NCBI GenBank assembly: GCA_021803035.1
Contig: JAJZME010000081.1
Location: 1-64,000, forward strand
Source: Acidobacteriota bacterium
Lineage (GTDB): Bacteria > Acidobacteriota > Terriglobia > Terriglobales > Acidobacteriaceae
DNA length: 64,000 nt
Reading direction: 5' to 3'
A program made the position numbers and the translations under genes. Of this stretch, positions 3,061 through 35,628 are shown in pieces. How positions within the stretch are numbered: position 1 is the stretch's first letter; each line of letters opens with the position of its first letter. The notes below the pieces were generated by a model. That model was not told where the DNA came from and made no database searches. It saw nothing but the letters and a program-made list of their open reading frames with translations.

Positions 3061-4815
3061 TTAATTGCCGCCAACAGCGGAGATTTCAAGCACCGCGAGC
3101 GCATCCGGCGGCAGCGTGAGCGATCCATCGATGACCTGCAATCCGGCGCCCGATGCGAGAATTACGCGGCTGGCGTGGGGCATTGAAAACCGTCGATTGG
3201 CTTTGCCCAGGTTGCACACTACGGCAACGGCTCCGCGATCCATGCGCAACCATTTTTCCTGCTCGTCAAAGGAGACATGTGTTTGCCGGGGTTCACCATC
3301 ATTCAGGCATGGGGTTGTGCGGCGCAGCCGGATTAGATCCCGATACCAGGCCAGCATCTCCGCATGGCCAGGCTGCTCCAACTCATTCCACGCGAGCTTC
3401 GACCGCTCGTAAGTCTCGCGGCTTTCCGGGTCGGGAATCTGATCGGGATCCCAGCCGAACGCTGAAAATTCTTGCTTTCGCCCTTCCGACACGGCTCGCG
3501 CCATGGCCGGATCGTCGTGGTCGGCAAAGTACTGGAATGGCGACGATGCTGCCCACTCTTCCCCCTGAAAGATCATGGGAATAAACGGACTCAACAAAAC
3601 CATGGCTGCGGCAATCCCGGCTCGCGCCATGCCGGCGATGTGACTGATCCGGTCTCCCACCGCCCGATTTCCAACCTGATCGTGATTTTGAATGTAACCA
3701 AGAAACTTATGCCGCGAAAGACTTCCCGCAGGGCGCCCGTGCATGCGATTGCGATAGCCCGAGTAGATGCCGTCGTAAACAAAGACGCATTCAATCGCTT
3801 TGGCCAACTGCCCCAGCGATCCGAAATCCGCATAGTAGCCGGCGGGCGGTGCTGGATTCAGCACGCTGAAGAGCGCATGGTGGAAATCGTCGCTCCACTG
3901 CGCGTCCGCTCCCAGGCCGCCGGCTTCGCGCGGCGCAACGATGCGCGGATCGTTCAGGTCGCTTTCGGCAATCACGACCAGCCTCCGCCGCAGAGTTGCT
4001 TCCAGCGCTTCCACTGCAGCCTTGAGCTGTTCGATAAAATGAATTGCCGACCTGTCAACAAACGCATGCACTGCATCCAGGCGCAGGCCGTCGATGTGAT
4101 AGTCGCGCAGCCACATCAGCGCGTTGTCGCAGAAGAAGCGCCTTGCCTGATGCGACCATCTTCCTTCGAGATTGACCGCCCCACCCCAGGGCGTATGGTG
4201 TGCCTCGGTGAGGTAGGGTGCGAATTTTCCTGTGTAATTGCCGACCGGGCCGAAGTGGTTATACACCACGTCAAGCAGCACCGCCAGTCCGCGCCGGTGT
4301 GCTGCATTCACAAACCTCTTGAGCGCGTCGGGACCGCCGTAAGGCTGGTGCACGGAATAGAGCGCCACTCCGTCATAGCCCCACCCATGATTTCCCGCGA
4401 ACGATGCCACCGGCATCAGCTCAACGTGCGTCACACCCAGCCCAGCCAGATAATTCAACTTATCAATCGCGGAATCAAGCGTTCCTTCCGGCGTGAACGT
4501 TCCCACGTGTAACTCGTACAGAACAGCACTCGACAGAGGAGGCGCCTGAAACACCGCGTCCGTCCAGGCGAACGCGCTGTCCTCGTAGATCCGCGAGAGC
4601 CCATGAACACCGTTCGGCTGCCACCGGGAACGAGGATCGGGATAACACGTATCATCGTTGTCGATAAGATAGCCGTAATTCGAGCCCGGACCGGCTGCGC
4701 TGACGTCCGCGCGCCACCAGCCCTGCCGATCAGGTCCTTGCATTGCAAGAACTCCGCTGTCCAGTGTTACCGCCAGGCGCCTGGCTCTTGGCGCCCATAT
4801 TTCGAATCGATGCAT
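3061..4815 (-). CDS. treZ: malto-oligosyltrehalose trehalohydrolase TreZ
   Basis: Cytoplasmic GH13 enzyme that cleaves the alpha-1,4 bond next to the trehalose end of malto-oligosyltrehalose and releases trehalose. The 584-residue protein begins with a CBM48-like beta domain (residues 1-95), followed by a TIM barrel. Catalytic residues are readable as D247 (GLRLDAVHAF), E284 (VIAESDLNDP) and D379 (GYIQNHDQVGNR); the last two motifs are typical of TreZ rather than of branching enzyme. The start lies 2 bases after the treY stop codon, so the two genes are certainly co-translated. Together with treY it forms the TreY/TreZ route from maltodextrin to trehalose. Confidence 0.95.
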   Translation of the reverse strand: MHRFEIWAPRARRLAVTLDSGVLAMQGPDRQGWWRADVSAAGPGSNYGYLIDNDDTCYPDPRSRWQPNGVHGLSRIYEDSAFAWTDAVFQAPPLSSAVLYELHVGTFTPEGTLDSAIDKLNYLAGLGVTHVELMPVASFAGNHGWGYDGVALYSVHQPYGGPDALKRFVNAAHRRGLAVLLDVVYNHFGPVGNYTGKFAPYLTEAHHTPWGGAVNLEGRWSHQARRFFCDNALMWLRDYHIDGLRLDAVHAFVDRSAIHFIEQLKAAVEALEATLRRRLVVIAESDLNDPRIVAPREAGGLGADAQWSDDFHHALFSVLNPAPPAGYYADFGSLGQLAKAIECVFVYDGIYSGYRNRMHGRPAGSLSRHKFLGYIQNHDQVGNRAVGDRISHIAGMARAGIAAAMVLLSPFIPMIFQGEEWAASSPFQYFADHDDPAMARAVSEGRKQEFSAFGWDPDQIPDPESRETYERSKLAWNELEQPGHAEMLAWYRDLIRLRRTTPCLNDGEPRQTHVSFDEQEKWLRMDRGAVAVVCNLGKANRRFSMPHASRVILASGAGLQVIDGSLTLPPDALAVLEISAVGGN

Positions 4816-4817
4816 AG

Positions 4818-7472
4818 TTAGTCCGTCATCCCAGTGAGAAGTGCGACCGGGAAGCGTTCCAGGAGCGATTGCGCACGCAAAACTCCTCCGTGGAACTCAT
4901 CGCCTGTAAATACATTGCGCCAGCGTCTTTCGGGAAGCGTTATAGCCGTCCCCGCCCAGCTTTTGCCGCGAATCATGTTCCAGCGCGGAACGATCACTGC
5001 AATATTTTCGCCGCGCATGTACGCAACCAGATGTTCTTTCCTGGCGCCCTCTGCCACAAGTGCCTCGTAGGCGGCGTCTTTACCAAAACACTCCGGGTGT
5101 TCCCGCCGCAGATGCAGGGCGCGATAAGTTGTCCACAGCTTCGGCATCCCGCTGTCCATTCTGTCCATGATGGCTTCGACACTCATGCCTCGATCGAGCT
5201 CCGCCAGCATGGACTGTCTGATCTCATAGTCGACAGGGCCGCGATTATCGGGGTCCACCAGCCGCAGGTCCCATAGCTCGCTGCCCTGGTATGTGTCTGG
5301 CACGCCGGGAGTGGTGAATTTGATGAGAGTTTGCGCCAGGCTATTGATCCGTCCTGCTTCCATCACACGGCTCACAAACCCATCGAGTTCGGAGACGAAA
5401 TCCTGTGAGCTGAGGATCTGCTCGATGAACTGCTGCAGTGCGTCTTCGAATTCACAATTGGGCTGCGTCCAGCTTGTCTGTTCCTTGGCCTCGCGGACAG
5501 CCTTCTCCATGTAGGTCCATAAGCGGTCTTTTGTGATTGGCCAGGCCCCAATCAGCGTCTGATAGAGAAAATACTCGGTGTTGCGATCCGGATATGTTCC
5601 CGTCTTGAAGCGCGCATTCGCGCGCGCCCAGCGGTTCAATGTGATTCTCCAGCGCCCGGGAATCTCGGTAAGGACCGCGAGTCGCGCGCGCACGTCTTCC
5701 GACCGCTTGGTGTCATGGGTAGAGAGAGTATTCATCGTGAACGGATGCTCGGCTTGCCTTCTGGTGCAGCACCCGTGAAATTCGGCGAGCGTGAGGCCGT
5801 TGCGCTCCGGCGCTCCGCCTACTTCGTTGAGCGCGATCATGCGGTTGAAGCAGTAAAACGCCGTATCCTCCACGCCCTTGGCCATCACCGGCGAAGTGAA
5901 CTGCTGAAAGCGAAGCAGGAACTCGCTCTCAAGTTCCCCGTGCACACGCAGCGATAATACATCGCCGATAAAGTCCAGCAGGCCCGCGTCCAGGTCGGTT
6001 CTGTGTTCCTTTGCCTTGCTCACAGCCTCGTCAATCCGGCTTTGGTCAAAGCTGTCGATCTCGTCCCGCTCGGGCACAACATATGTCCGGTACACCGAGA
6101 AGCACGCAGCTACTTCACGCAGTGCCCTCCGAATCTCTGACCGGGTAAAGTCGCGGCGTTCGCGGTTGTTCTCGCAAACCTCCACAAACAGGCTGGCCAG
6201 CCGGTTGACGTCGCTGCCCAGAGCCTCCTGCTGCACGTTCAGTTTCTTGTCGTGCGCAATCTCGTCAAACTGGGATGCATGGCCGACGAAGTCGCTATAA
6301 ATTGCGGTGATATCCGCAAGTCCTCTTTCATATATCAACAGGCTGTTGCACAGGTTCAGAAAGTCATAGCCGACCGTGCCTTCGATGGGCCAGTTCTCGC
6401 GCAGGTGTTCTCCTGGCTCCAGGATCTTTTCGCCGATAATCCACGCTTCGGGGGCCTGGCTTCGCAGCCGCTCGAAATATTGCTTCGGATCGCGCAATCC
6501 GTCGGGATGGTCGACGCGCACGCCGTCCAGCACGCCGTTGCGCAGCCAGTCCAGAATCAGGCGGTGCGTTGCGTCGAAGACGTGCGGACGTTCCACGCGT
6601 ACGCCGATCAGTGTGCTGACATCGAAAAATCGCCTGTAGCCGAGTTCCTGATCGGCGGTGCGCCAATAAGCCAGCCGATAGTGCTGCAGATTGAGGAATT
6701 CGTCCAATGCGTCGTGGTTGGCATTCAGCTCATCAAAAGCAGTCGCGATGGCCGCGGACACTTCCGGGCGCTCCTCGCAAAGCCTGCGCAGGAGTTCATA
6801 AATCACTGTCTTGTCGCTGTGCCGCGACAGGACCATCTCGCGGTCTGAAGGCTCGGGGGTGGGCAGCCGGGCAAGGCTGTCGGCAAGAAAGCTCAAGGTG
6901 GAATTTCGTGCATACTCCGCCGCCTTGGCCAGGGGAATCGCCAGCGAACGGGGAGCAAGCGGATACAAATTATCCATGTAGCGGACCTGAAATCGGTCGT
7001 CGAGGTGCTCGGCGATAATCTGGTTTGCGCTCAATACGCGCCCGTATTGATCGCCCAGGACCGGGATCAGGACCTTGTTTTGCAGCTTGACTTCAGCCGA
7101 GTGCCAATCGATGTCGAACCAAGTGGCGTAGCGGCTTGAGCGGCCGTTCTCAAGCACGTCCCACCAGTAGCGGTTTTGCGGGACAGTGGCCATGTGATTG
7201 GGTACGATATCCAGCACCTGGCCCAAATCGAGCGCTTTGAGGCGGTCGCAGAATCTCTTGTGCCCCTCGTCGCCGCCCAGTTCCTCGTTCACGCTTTGGT
7301 GATCGACTACATTATAGCCGTGTGCGCTGCCGGGAACGGCCTGCAGATTGGGCGCGCTGTACACGTGGGATATGCCCAGATCTTTCAGATAACCGGCTAT
7401 TGCGATTGCGTCGTCGAAGGTGAAGTTCGCATGCAACTGCAGCCGGTATGTGGACGAAGGAATGCGCCGCAT
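4818..7472 (-). CDS. treY: maltooligosyl trehalose synthase TreY
   Basis: Intramolecular transglucosylase that converts the reducing-end alpha-1,4 bond of maltodextrin to alpha,alpha-1,1. The 884-residue protein starts with the typical PSSTYRLQL and SHVYSAPNLQAV segments. GH13 motifs are readable: DIVPNHMA (88-95), nucleophile D321 in GVRVDHPDGL, acid E348 in IIGEKILEPGE, and D587 in STHDTKRSED. It is the first gene of a treY-treZ pair. The debranching partner treX is not next to it and no glycogen synthase gene is in the window, although a giant GH13 protein lies at 31.9 kb. No strong ribosome binding site is seen before the ATG. Confidence 0.95.
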   Translation of the reverse strand: MRRIPSSTYRLQLHANFTFDDAIAIAGYLKDLGISHVYSAPNLQAVPGSAHGYNVVDHQSVNEELGGDEGHKRFCDRLKALDLGQVLDIVPNHMATVPQNRYWWDVLENGRSSRYATWFDIDWHSAEVKLQNKVLIPVLGDQYGRVLSANQIIAEHLDDRFQVRYMDNLYPLAPRSLAIPLAKAAEYARNSTLSFLADSLARLPTPEPSDREMVLSRHSDKTVIYELLRRLCEERPEVSAAIATAFDELNANHDALDEFLNLQHYRLAYWRTADQELGYRRFFDVSTLIGVRVERPHVFDATHRLILDWLRNGVLDGVRVDHPDGLRDPKQYFERLRSQAPEAWIIGEKILEPGEHLRENWPIEGTVGYDFLNLCNSLLIYERGLADITAIYSDFVGHASQFDEIAHDKKLNVQQEALGSDVNRLASLFVEVCENNRERRDFTRSEIRRALREVAACFSVYRTYVVPERDEIDSFDQSRIDEAVSKAKEHRTDLDAGLLDFIGDVLSLRVHGELESEFLLRFQQFTSPVMAKGVEDTAFYCFNRMIALNEVGGAPERNGLTLAEFHGCCTRRQAEHPFTMNTLSTHDTKRSEDVRARLAVLTEIPGRWRITLNRWARANARFKTGTYPDRNTEYFLYQTLIGAWPITKDRLWTYMEKAVREAKEQTSWTQPNCEFEDALQQFIEQILSSQDFVSELDGFVSRVMEAGRINSLAQTLIKFTTPGVPDTYQGSELWDLRLVDPDNRGPVDYEIRQSMLAELDRGMSVEAIMDRMDSGMPKLWTTYRALHLRREHPECFGKDAAYEALVAEGARKEHLVAYMRGENIAVIVPRWNMIRGKSWAGTAITLPERRWRNVFTGDEFHGGVLRAQSLLERFPVALLTGMTD

Positions 7473-31878: not shown

Positions 31879-34800
31879 ATGATGGAATTTCACATTGGCC
31901 GCAACGCGCGCGAACGCTACGAGTTCACCGAAACCCTGTTTTCGTACACGGGAAACGTGGTGCTGGGCGACATGCCGGCCTGCCGGCAGTTGACGCACCG
32001 GATGAACCAGGTGCGCGAGGCGGAGAAGTATCCCGAGCGGGCGGTTCATGCCGGGTCGCTGTTTGCGATGGGCCTGATCGATGAAGCCAGTCACATGGTG
32101 ATGGCCCGCTACCGCGAGCAGGTCGACCCGCACGTGATGACGGCGGCGCTGGGTTGGTTTGCGGAGCAGGTGGGCGGCGATGCGCTGGACAAGATGCTGC
32201 TGGCCTTTGTGGAGCATTTCCCGGGGTCGAGCATCATTCGCGGCGAGGAGACGCCAGCGCAGTGGCTGGCTGGTTCCACCGCGGGCATACCGCACCGCGC
32301 CGCCGCGCTGGAAGAGTTGCTGCTGCTGTGGGCTGCGAACCGCAACCAGGCCTTCGATCCCTTTGCGGAGTTGTTCGAGGAAACGCCGCTGGCGGAAAAG
32401 ACGGTCTACACGCAGGTTACGGCGCGGCTCGGGGAGTATTTTGCTTCGCGGCCGCTGATTCCGGTTGCCGGCGGCAAGGCGATGAGCGTGCTGGAGCTGC
32501 TACGGGCGCCGGCGCTGCGGGCGCCCGGCTCGCTGAGCGCGCAGCTTGCCATCATCCGCCTGTTGTGGCGGGTGCTGCTGGGCGACGCCCTGGACCGGCT
32601 GCTGCAGATGGCCGCAGAGATTCTGCGCGAGGAAGAACTGGCCATCTGGATGATGTACAACCCGCATGGCGTGGCCGGGCGGCGGGCGCAAGGCGGCATT
32701 ACCAGCGAGTCGCAGGTGCCGGATTTCACCAGCCTGGCCTTCGAGTACGAGAGGTTTTCGCAGGACACGCACTGGATGCCGAGCACGGTGCTGATGGCCA
32801 AGAGCACCTACGTGTGGCTGGCGCAGTTGAGCCGGAAGTATGGGCGGCACATCGGACGGCTGGACGAAATTCCCGATGAAGAGTTGGAACTGCTTGCCCG
32901 GCGCGGGCTGAATGCTTTGTGGCTGATCGGCGTCTGGGAGCGCAGCCGGGCTTCGAAGACCATCAAGCAGCTTTGCGGGAACCGCGACGCGGTGGCCTCG
33001 GCCTACTCGCTTTACGACTACACGATCGCCGAGGATCTGGGCGGCGAGGCGGCGTATATCAACCTGCGCGACCGCGCCGGCCGGCACGGCATCCGGCTGG
33101 CCAGCGACATGGTGCCCAACCACATGGGCATCGATTCGCCGTGGGTGGTGGAGCATCCGGAGTGGTTCATGTCGCGCTGGCATCCGCCGTATCCGGCGTA
33201 TGGCTTCAATGGGCCGAATTTGTCGCACGACGGGCGCGTTGAGATCAAGATAGAGGACCACTACTTTGAGCAGTCCGACGCCGCGGTGGTCTTCCAGCGG
33301 CGCGATCTGGCGTCAGGCGAGACGCGCTACATCTATCACGGCAACGACGGCACCAGCTTTCCGTGGAACGACACCGCACAACTGGACTACCTGAATCCGG
33401 CGGTGCGCGAGCAGGTGATCCAGACGATTCTGCACGTGGCGCGGCTGTTTCCCATCATCCGCTTCGACGCGGCCATGACGCTGGCCAAGCGGCACTTTCA
33501 CCGGCTGTGGTTTCCGGGGCCGGGATCGAGCGGAGCCATTCCGTCGCGCGCCGAGTACAGCATGTCGCAGGCGGATTTCGACCGGGCCATGCCCAACGAA
33601 TTCTGGCGTGAGGTGGTGGACCGCGTGGCCGCCGAGGTGCCTGGGACGCTGCTGCTCGCCGAGGCGTTCTGGCTGATGGAAGGGTACTTTGTGCGCACGC
33701 TGGGCATGCACCGGGTGTACAACTCGGCGTTTATGAACATGCTGCGCGACGAGAAAAACGCCGAATACCGGTCGGTGATCAAGAATACGCTGGAATTCGA
33801 CCCGGACATCATGAAGCGTTACGTGAACTTCATGAGCAATCCCGATGAAAGAACGGCAATTGATCAGTTTGGGACGGGCGACAAGTGCTTTGGCGTGACG
33901 GTGCTGATGTCCACGCTGCCCGGGCTGCCGATGTTCGGGCACGGGCAGATCGAGGGATTCACGGAAAAGTACGGGATGGAATACCGCTGGCCGCGCTACG
34001 AGGAGAATCCCGATGCCTGGCTGGTGGAGCGGCACGAGCGCGAGATCGCGCCGCTGCTCAAGCGCCGGTGGCTGTTTGCCGAGAGCGAAAATTTCCTGCT
34101 CTACGACTTCTTCGAGCCGTCGGGCTCCGTGGACGAGAACGTGTTCGCCTACTCGAACCGGAGTGGCGGCGAACGGGTGCTGGTAATTTACAACAATCGC
34201 TTTAGGAATACGCGCGGGACGATTGATTTTTCAGCCGCTTATGCGGATAAGGGTGCGGGGCAGTTGCGGCAGCGGCGGCTGCGCGAAGGGCTGGCGTTGA
34301 GCGGCGACGCGTCGGCGGTGCTGGCCTGGCGCGACTCGCTGACCGGGCTGGAATATCTGCGGCGGGCCGGCGAGGTGCTGGATCGTGGGTTGACGCTCGA
34401 CCTGCATGCCTATCAGTGCCAGGTATTTCTGGAGTGGCGCGAGCTGCACGCCACGGCGGAAGAGCCCTGGGAGCGGCTTGCCGACTGGCTGGGCGGGCGC
34501 GGGGTTCCGAGCCTGAACGATGCGCTGGTGAGCCTGGAACTGCAGCCGGTACACGAGGCGCTACGCGAGGTGCTGGAACCGGAGCTGGTGCGGCTGATCG
34601 CGGATCTGGCCGAGGAGCCGCGCATGCTGGCGATGGCCAAGCCGGCGGCGGTGGAGCGCGAGCGGAACGAGATTGTGGAGCGGGCCTGGGTGCAGTGTGA
34701 GCGTTTTCTGCATGTGGCGCGGAAGGGATACGCGGCGCGGCTTGCGCGCGAGGGCCAGGCTGTCGCGCTTGCGGCGCCGTCGAATCTGGATCGGATCGGC

Positions 34801-35628
34801 GCGGCGTTTCGGCGGCAGGCGCGGGCCAGCATGCGCTTTCCGGCGGTGGAGGCGGCGTTTCCTGCTCCCTGGCCGGCGGCGGCGCGGCGGGTCTTGCCGA
34901 GCGCCAGCCCGAAGTTTACGGCGACAGCCATGTGGGGGCCGGTGCTGGGCTGGTGCGCGCTGCAGGCGCTGGCGGAGTTTGTTGCCGGCGATGGCAAGGA
35001 ACGGACGGCGGCGGATCTGGCGATCGATCTGTTTGACCGGCTGCGCTTGCGCGAGCCCCTGGCACGGACCTTTGAGACGTTGGGGCTGGAAGGTGAAGAG
35101 GCATGGCGGGGAGTGGCGCGCATCAAGGTGCTGCTGCTGGTTCAGGCGGCTGCGGCAGCTTCCGCAAAGGCCGGCGAGGTTCCCGCGGCGGCCAGGCCGG
35201 CCGGCGAAGCAAAACGGCCGGTCGCGGTTGAAAGCGAAGCCATGGCCGCGGCAGCGGAGGGCTCACTGCCGCCGGCACTGTGGCGCGATGCGGATGTGCG
35301 TTGGCTGACGGGGCTGCACGAGGCGGAGGGTCATCTTTACCCGATCCGTGAGCATTATGAGGAGCTGCTGTGGTGGCTGGAGATGCCGGCGCTGCTGGGC
35401 CTGGCGTCCTGTCCGGCGCCCGGTTACGAAGCGGCCGGGCAGGTGGACAAGGCTGTTCGAGAGGCGCTGAAGGTGGTGGAAGACTTGCGGTATCGTGTGG
35501 ATGAGCTGCCCGGGGTGGTTCCAGCAGCCGAGACGCCCGCAGAGGAGACGGCCGAGACGGAGGAGCCATTGCCGCCAGCGGAGGCCGTGGCGAAGGAAAC
35601 GAAGGAAACAGAGGACAGGGAGAAGTAG
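31879..35628 (+). CDS. giant GH13-type alpha-glucan-active enzyme (1249 aa), family unclear
   Basis: Cytoplasmic (no signal peptide), 1249 residues. Residues 1-330 are helix-rich with no domain I recognise. A GH13 TIM barrel spans about 335-860: motif I DMVPNHMG (410-417), nucleophile D530 in IIRFDAAMTL, acid E595 in LLAEAFWLME and D656 in FMSNPDERTA. The last motif has Pro where most GH13 enzymes have His (NHD), as I recall for GlgE-like enzymes. Residues 870-1190 are a second helical domain of unknown type, and the end is an Ala/Glu/Pro tail. It probably hydrolyses or transfers alpha-glucosyl units, perhaps linked to the treYZ glucan pool. accA follows 63 bases downstream. The start ATG-ATG follows GGGAGAG at long spacing. 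Confidence 0.75.
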   Translation: MMEFHIGRNARERYEFTETLFSYTGNVVLGDMPACRQLTHRMNQVREAEKYPERAVHAGSLFAMGLIDEASHMVMARYREQVDPHVMTAALGWFAEQVGGDALDKMLLAFVEHFPGSSIIRGEETPAQWLAGSTAGIPHRAAALEELLLLWAANRNQAFDPFAELFEETPLAEKTVYTQVTARLGEYFASRPLIPVAGGKAMSVLELLRAPALRAPGSLSAQLAIIRLLWRVLLGDALDRLLQMAAEILREEELAIWMMYNPHGVAGRRAQGGITSESQVPDFTSLAFEYERFSQDTHWMPSTVLMAKSTYVWLAQLSRKYGRHIGRLDEIPDEELELLARRGLNALWLIGVWERSRASKTIKQLCGNRDAVASAYSLYDYTIAEDLGGEAAYINLRDRAGRHGIRLASDMVPNHMGIDSPWVVEHPEWFMSRWHPPYPAYGFNGPNLSHDGRVEIKIEDHYFEQSDAAVVFQRRDLASGETRYIYHGNDGTSFPWNDTAQLDYLNPAVREQVIQTILHVARLFPIIRFDAAMTLAKRHFHRLWFPGPGSSGAIPSRAEYSMSQADFDRAMPNEFWREVVDRVAAEVPGTLLLAEAFWLMEGYFVRTLGMHRVYNSAFMNMLRDEKNAEYRSVIKNTLEFDPDIMKRYVNFMSNPDERTAIDQFGTGDKCFGVTVLMSTLPGLPMFGHGQIEGFTEKYGMEYRWPRYEENPDAWLVERHEREIAPLLKRRWLFAESENFLLYDFFEPSGSVDENVFAYSNRSGGERVLVIYNNRFRNTRGTIDFSAAYADKGAGQLRQRRLREGLALSGDASAVLAWRDSLTGLEYLRRAGEVLDRGLTLDLHAYQCQVFLEWRELHATAEEPWERLADWLGGRGVPSLNDALVSLELQPVHEALREVLEPELVRLIADLAEEPRMLAMAKPAAVERERNEIVERAWVQCERFLHVARKGYAARLAREGQAVALAAPSNLDRIGAAFRRQARASMRFPAVEAAFPAPWPAAARRVLPSASPKFTATAMWGPVLGWCALQALAEFVAGDGKERTAADLAIDLFDRLRLREPLARTFETLGLEGEEAWRGVARIKVLLLVQAAAAASAKAGEVPAAARPAGEAKRPVAVESEAMAAAAEGSLPPALWRDADVRWLTGLHEAEGHLYPIREHYEELLWWLEMPALLGLASCPAPGYEAAGQVDKAVREALKVVEDLRYRVDELPGVVPAAETPAEETAETEEPLPPAEAVAKETKETEDREK

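Follow-up and report, generated by a model that had tools for sequence, protein, structure and literature searches.

Branching determines whether an alpha-glucan becomes soluble, usable glycogen. As set out in a 2024 review (PMC11046441), branching enzymes fall in two families, GH13 and GH57, and the occurrence of glycogen in TACK archaea that have neither family strongly suggests an undiscovered branching activity. Here we describe a gene located in a 64,000-nucleotide stretch of DNA from an Acidobacteriota bacterium (assembly GCA_021803035.1, contig JAJZME010000081.1, positions 1 to 64,000 of the forward strand; hereafter the window). The gene (31879..35628, + strand, ATG start) encodes a protein of 1249 residues with a GH13 catalytic barrel. 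Based on sequence and genomic profile, we predict that this protein probably branches glycogen, as a new type of GH13 enzyme that takes the place of GlgB. Linkage and profile together make a role of its family in glycogen metabolism very likely. A first-pass annotation of the window had proposed no specific reaction, and it is the genomic profile that points to branching.

GlgB belongs to the GH13 subfamilies GH13_8/9, and the N-terminal family PF02922 is the module named CBM48. E. coli GlgB is listed with PF02922 in PMC6686919, whereas PF02922 was absent from the window protein in Pfam scans, and neither TIGR01515 nor any other GlgB model was among its eight NCBIfam matches at E<=1, none of which came near its cut-off. 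The two enzymes have in common the GH13 triad and a genomic niche (glycogen-capable genomes, with glgC, glgX and phosphorylase neighbours in some lineages), but the window family differs in its helical N- and C-terminal domains and in conserved sequence region (CSR) IV, which reads NPD. GH57 branching enzymes (PF03065 with PF09210) share the proposed function and differ in the type of barrel; no GH57 match was obtained for the window protein with Pfam.

Membership of the GH13 clan is indicated by the D/E/D triad and by PF00128, the sole family above cut-off in a Pfam scan of the whole protein (E 2.7e-6, residues 323-696). According to PMC11239784, NHD in CSR-IV is typical of most GH13 subfamilies, whereas the histidine is replaced by P655 in all 61 sequences that we aligned. 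The GlgE of the same genome also lacks this histidine and reads NTPD, and since GlgE has a proline there too, the loss need not preclude glucan transfer. Among solved structures, the closest in sequence are the chains 4gkl and 3dhu, maltogenic amylases of GH13_48, and the haloarchaeal MalA model of NCBIfam matches residues 566-786 far under its cut-off (E 1.5e-12). GH13_48 and GH13_49, the latter with the Haloarcula japonica amylase, carry NHD in CSR-IV, as given in PMC11239784, in contrast to the NPD and two large helical domains of the window protein. Outside the family, the top-scoring barrels (E 2e-43 to 2e-57) belong to three single-domain GH13 proteins of 469-510 residues from other Acidobacteriota (L118:7041-8447, L119:6107-7636 and L120:7113-8528, the second beside hslU- and hslV-like genes identified by eye). 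These share motifs such as DTAQLDY with the window family, and L118 also shares GQMEGFTEK, but they read NHDE rather than NPDE, have no flanking domains and are shorter between residues 432 and 490. A tblastn search of plasmids gave 8 records that matched the barrel alone, at 25-27% identity. As judged from these searches, neither Pfam nor NCBIfam has a model specific to the family. Nothing on it was found in the open-licence PubMed Central literature, and on these two grounds, with CAZy outside that search, we regard it as undescribed.

The barrel (residues 296-735, 32764..34083) carries CSR-I as DMVPNH (residues 410-415, 33106..33123), D530 within an RFD motif (33466..33468), E595 within an AE motif (33661..33663) and CSR-IV as N654-P655-D656 (33838..33846); the roles of D530 as catalytic nucleophile and of E595 as general acid/base are assigned by GH13 homology. 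It is preceded by an all-helical N-terminal domain (residues 1-262, 31879..32664) and a variable linker (residues 263-295, 32665..32763) with a median identity of 0.43 among relatives. On its C-terminal side lie a beta-rich domain C (residues 736-860, 34084..34458), with strands in the whole-chain model, a modelled and less conserved helical domain (residues 861-1200, 34459..35478) with a low-complexity insert near 1093-1130, and an acidic low-complexity tail evident from sequence and alignment (residues 1201-1249, 35479..35625). All of these are on the + strand. When residues 1-292 and 857-1249 were scanned separately against Pfam, no family was matched at E<=1. The N-terminus (MMEFHI...) has no hydrophobic leader by eye, no signal-peptide predictor having been run, and is consistent with a cytoplasmic location.

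A single scan of genome contigs yielded 80 relatives, which with few exceptions bear the label Acidobacteriaceae or Acidobacteria. A family protein is also encoded by Terriglobus roseus DSM 18391 (L068). The outliers are L074 (Candidatus Hydrogenedentota) and L059, on a contig labelled Rhodanobacteraceae that we suspect to be misbinned. Because most relatives align from residue 1-3 to beyond 1160, the frame is not a chance open reading frame. In an alignment of the window protein with 60 relatives, median identity to the window protein was 88% for the barrel (68% for that of L074), with values of 67% for the N-terminal domain and about 51% for the C-terminal domain. H415, R528, D530, E595, N654 and P655 are identical in 61/61 sequences and D656 in 60/61, the remaining row being gapped at D656 and E657; the triad is also kept in L111, L113 and L114. 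The sequence and this alignment bear out the reading frame and the motif positions D530, E595 and D656 of the first-pass annotation, together with its reading of NPD in place of NHD. Its description of an unusual GH13-type enzyme likewise agrees with the lack of a specific model and with the two domains foreign to Pfam. It had also left about 330 residues unassigned on each flank; neither flank indeed has a Pfam match, but the N-terminal part proved to be a domain of about 262 residues followed by the variable linker. In one Acidobacteriaceae metagenome-assembled genome (L018:8001-13820), the family frame extends without a stop to 1940 residues, the last 640 of which have no Pfam match; a GC-rich frame may simply be read through here, the assembly may be at fault, or the fusion may be real.

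The genome to which the window belongs is 98.5% complete and encodes GlgE, TreS-maltokinase, GlgA, GlgP (in two pieces), MalQ, TreY, TreZ and, by eye, a GlgM-like GT4 protein, with neither a GlgB over cut-off nor a GH57 BE_C protein. PF00128 matches eight stretches of this genome, which fall in the 1249-residue protein, GlgE, TreS, TreY, TreZ and two apparently secreted proteins (by eye). No glgB is present in its glgE-treS-mak run, and in G376, a genome of the same class without the family, the run reads glgE, treS-mak, malQ, glgB, treZ (treS-mak, malQ and treZ by eye).

We evaluated the distribution of the family across 396 Acidobacteriota genomes, taking a match of >600 bits as presence and scoring at most two candidates per genome. 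Fragments of the same genes aside, the next matches below the family score about 100 bits and are other GH13 proteins. The family occurs in 56 genomes, comprising 31 of the 44 in f1, the taxonomic family of the window, which we equate with Acidobacteriaceae because of its named relatives, and a further 25 spread over ten other taxonomic families. In these counts, a gene of G016 split over two contig pieces was counted once, two genes with an in-frame stop (one TGA in G265, one TAG in G336) were kept, and so was G368, which carries the MerR fusions described below. GlgB (E<=1e-140 in genome rows, the total being the number over cut-off) was found in 144 genomes, GH57 BE_C in 129 and GlgA (PF08323 at E<=1e-30, with 18 genomes of weaker matches treated as lacking it) in 287. 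A glucan synthase accompanies the family in each of the 56 genomes (GlgA in 48, GlgE in the other 8), and G368 is the only genome in which the family and GlgB occur together.

This near-exclusion counts in favour of the predicted branching function. Outside f1, 251 genomes carry GlgA. GlgB or GH57 BE_C is present in 213 of them, one of which carries the family as well; in 23 the family is the sole candidate, and 15 lack all three. The family is accordingly present in 23/38 of those without GlgB or GH57 BE_C and in 1/213 of those with one (Fisher p 1.6e-21, a raw value that is inflated, to the detriment of our proposal, because the test ignores shared ancestry). When a single genome was drawn per taxonomic family, the median p over 2000 draws was 1.2e-6 and the worst 2e-4; tabulated by family (72 families), p was 1e-4. 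The alternation recurs at a finer scale. In f46 and f49 one genome has the family gene and others have GH57 BE_C, the f46 BE_C matches being weak (about 1e-11), and members of f74 have the family gene, GlgB, or GlgB with the fusions. Within f1, the family is found in 31 genomes, GlgB in 5 others and both in none.

The same pattern could also reflect lineage history if the protein were another enzyme of glycogen turnover, such as an endo-amylase, a 4-alpha-glucanotransferase or a debranching enzyme. We consider this unlikely, although it has some appeal in that 4gkl and 3dhu are amylases described as maltogenic, the glgX and phosphorylase genes adjoining some family members are both degradative, and 21/25 family genomes outside f1 have no GlgX over cut-off (4/25 have it), making debranching conceivable there. 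Such a function, however, would leave 33 genomes that make glucan with neither GlgB nor GH57 BE_C, and it would have to accommodate both an exclusion that persists at one genome per taxonomic family and the adjacency of the biosynthetic glgC to the family gene in two families. Debranching in particular is at odds with f1. In our survey of GlgE and GlgX in 80 chosen genomes (among them every one of the 56 with the family and of the 44 in f1), GlgX was present in 21/31 f1 family genomes vs 3/13 f1 genomes without the family (p 0.009), with the GlgX of G241 just below cut-off. This association is expected of a branch maker and argues against the family being a GlgX substitute in f1, where replacement of GlgX is thus disfavoured.

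Further support for a role in glycogen metabolism is provided by gene neighbours, which were found by targeted tblastn around family-bearing loci that have unequal flank lengths and in some cases share one genome. In L109 (f49), glgC ends 5 bp upstream of the family gene ATG and malQ lies downstream on the opposite strand; the GlgC of this locus is just short of its equivalog cut-off (520.7 vs 537 bits). The order in L111 (f87) is family gene then glgC, and here GlgC is over one equivalog cut-off. An alpha-glucan phosphorylase gene (TIGR02094, over cut-off) precedes the family gene in 2/3 loci of f64 (L103 and L150, not L107), with 16 bp between phosphorylase and the likely ATG of the family gene in L103. 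In genus g3, glgX is tail to tail with the family gene in 8/16 family genomes, and in L045 GlgA is located 6.4 kb downstream. The link to intracellular alpha-glucan suggested by the first-pass annotation is sustained by the glgC, glgX and phosphorylase neighbours and by the presence of TreY and TreZ in the window (3061-7472).

Several observations weigh against the proposed branching function. A clear glycogen-gene neighbour is found in only 14/134 family-bearing loci, one of which repeats a genome (L147 repeats G329), while a fifteenth row with a weak 32% TreS-like match was left uncounted. The window gene itself is surrounded by housekeeping genes (rpoN, acs, ispG, accA) and is not part of a glycogen operon, and the core resembles amylases, not GlgB, by sequence and has lost the CSR-IV histidine. 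A GH57 BE_C protein is also carried by 22/31 f1 family genomes, and the family is therefore not the sole branching candidate there. A representative of these proteins, L148, scores 476 and 441 bits with the archaeal and Thermus branching-enzyme models, about half their cut-offs, and two branching enzymes in one organism are known for Petrotoga mobilis, as stated in PMC6629080. The GH57 survey was confined to proteins with BE_C. G388, an f1 genome of the window's genus that is 99% complete, has GlgE and GlgX and has no GlgB over cut-off, GH57 BE_C or family member, so that either a gene was missed or a further branching route exists. The 15 GlgA genomes outside f1 that lack all three candidates (G028, G041, G060, G093, G120, G146, G154, G194, G198, G253, G261, G303, G306, G351 and G372) take in every sampled GlgA genome of f30, f37, f50, f58, f68 and f76. 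Two of them, G198 and G372, combine a borderline GlgA (about 1e-33) with GlgB-like matches under cut-off, the situation in the two f68 genomes. Since these 15 genomes and G388 have no candidate, other branching routes or undetected genes exist.

The first-pass annotation had also associated the NPD motif with GlgE-like enzymes. The window protein and GlgE are both GH13 proteins linked to alpha-glucan, and the hint stands insofar as the genome's GlgE has a proline before the CSR-IV aspartate. It fails in that the window protein has no PF11896 match, GlgE is encoded by a separate gene with PF11896 in the same genome, and the top barrels outside the family are the single-domain GH13 proteins of ~470-510 residues with NHDE. 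Identity with GlgE was rejected on the first two of these grounds. It is also highly improbable that the protein is a GlgE-like maltosyltransferase or another phosphosugar-using GH13 enzyme, as a separate GlgE accompanies the family in 23/56 genomes overall, but in just 2/25 outside f1. Foldseek ranked GlgE first for the whole-chain AlphaFold model and also matched TreS, but the TM-score by query length was 0.20-0.27, and these matches carry little weight because the barrel was modelled at low confidence. The model as a whole (predicted local distance difference test score, pLDDT, 75.4; predicted TM-score 0.59) predicts the barrel poorly, probably because the 61 sequences are too similar. Modelled alone, the N-terminal domain is confidently all-helical (pLDDT 90.5). 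Foldseek found no match to this model in the PDB at E<=0.001, and a second structural comparison, against 572 chains, reached a Z of 3.3 at best; these blanks do not prove a new fold, and we do not claim one.

The only genome with both GlgB and the family, G368 (10.2 Mb, f74), differs in its family members. Each of its two paralogues (L114:5716-9387 and L115:6690-10322) has a MerR domain at the N-terminus that scores over cut-off, together with a B12-binding-like match that stays under it, and each lacks the C-terminal helical domain, ending after domain C. L114 keeps the triad, whereas L115 has lost the nucleophile, replaced by glycine, and the CSR-IV aspartate. In the tree, the MerR-fused copies group with L112, an ordinary f74 member (91/92), a placement that is not secure given the long branches. 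These fusions may be regulators in which the barrel senses sugar. One could extend this to the whole family and regard its members mainly as glucan-binding scaffolds or regulators, with the barrel as a sensor and catalysis secondary, as the two fusions, one of them without nucleophile and CSR-IV aspartate, would suggest. There is little probability in this, however, as the triad is kept in L111, L113 and L114 as well as throughout the 61 aligned sequences, apart from the single gap at D656, and as no DNA-binding domain was found in the non-fused members scanned against Pfam (the window protein, L074, L109, L111 and L113). A broader scenario, which we offer tentatively, is that glycogen branching enzymes include, in addition to GlgB and GH57, a third class, built of a GH13 barrel without the usual CSR-IV histidine between two undescribed helical domains. 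This class would have displaced GlgB or GH57 several times in Acidobacteriota, and one GlgB-bearing lineage would then have recruited it as the glucan-sensing part of MerR-type transcription regulators, one copy losing catalysis.

For the predicted branching enzyme, the GH13 barrel would bind a linear alpha-1,4-glucan, the product of GlgA or GlgE, and cleave it by way of a covalent intermediate on D530, E595 acting as acid/base. The cut chain would then be moved to the 6-OH of a neighbouring chain to form an alpha-1,6 branch, and the N- and C-terminal helical domains may hold donor and acceptor chains or make oligomer contacts. If the prediction is correct, the same kind of gap as in TACK archaea would be filled in a common soil phylum, the branching of GlgE- or GlgA-dependent glycogen in Acidobacteriota without GlgB and GH57 BE_C would be explained, and a new starch-modifying enzyme would become available. 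Surveys of glycogen synthesis that score GlgB and GH57 alone would overlook these genomes.

Elsewhere in the window, the trehalose/alpha-glucan network is represented by genes for TreZ (3061..4815, - strand; TIGR02402, 705.8 bits, over cut-off; about 27 kb from the family gene) and TreY (4818..7472, - strand; TIGR02401, 937.1 bits, over cut-off). Other neighbours of the family gene encode a CAAX-protease-like protein and a small protein whose outer-membrane barrel match is sub-threshold. Among the surveyed genomes, G188 has GH57 BE_C and GlgA matches side by side on the same strand (C415:6076-7185, - strand) in one open frame of 1043 residues, apparently a branching enzyme-glycogen synthase fusion.

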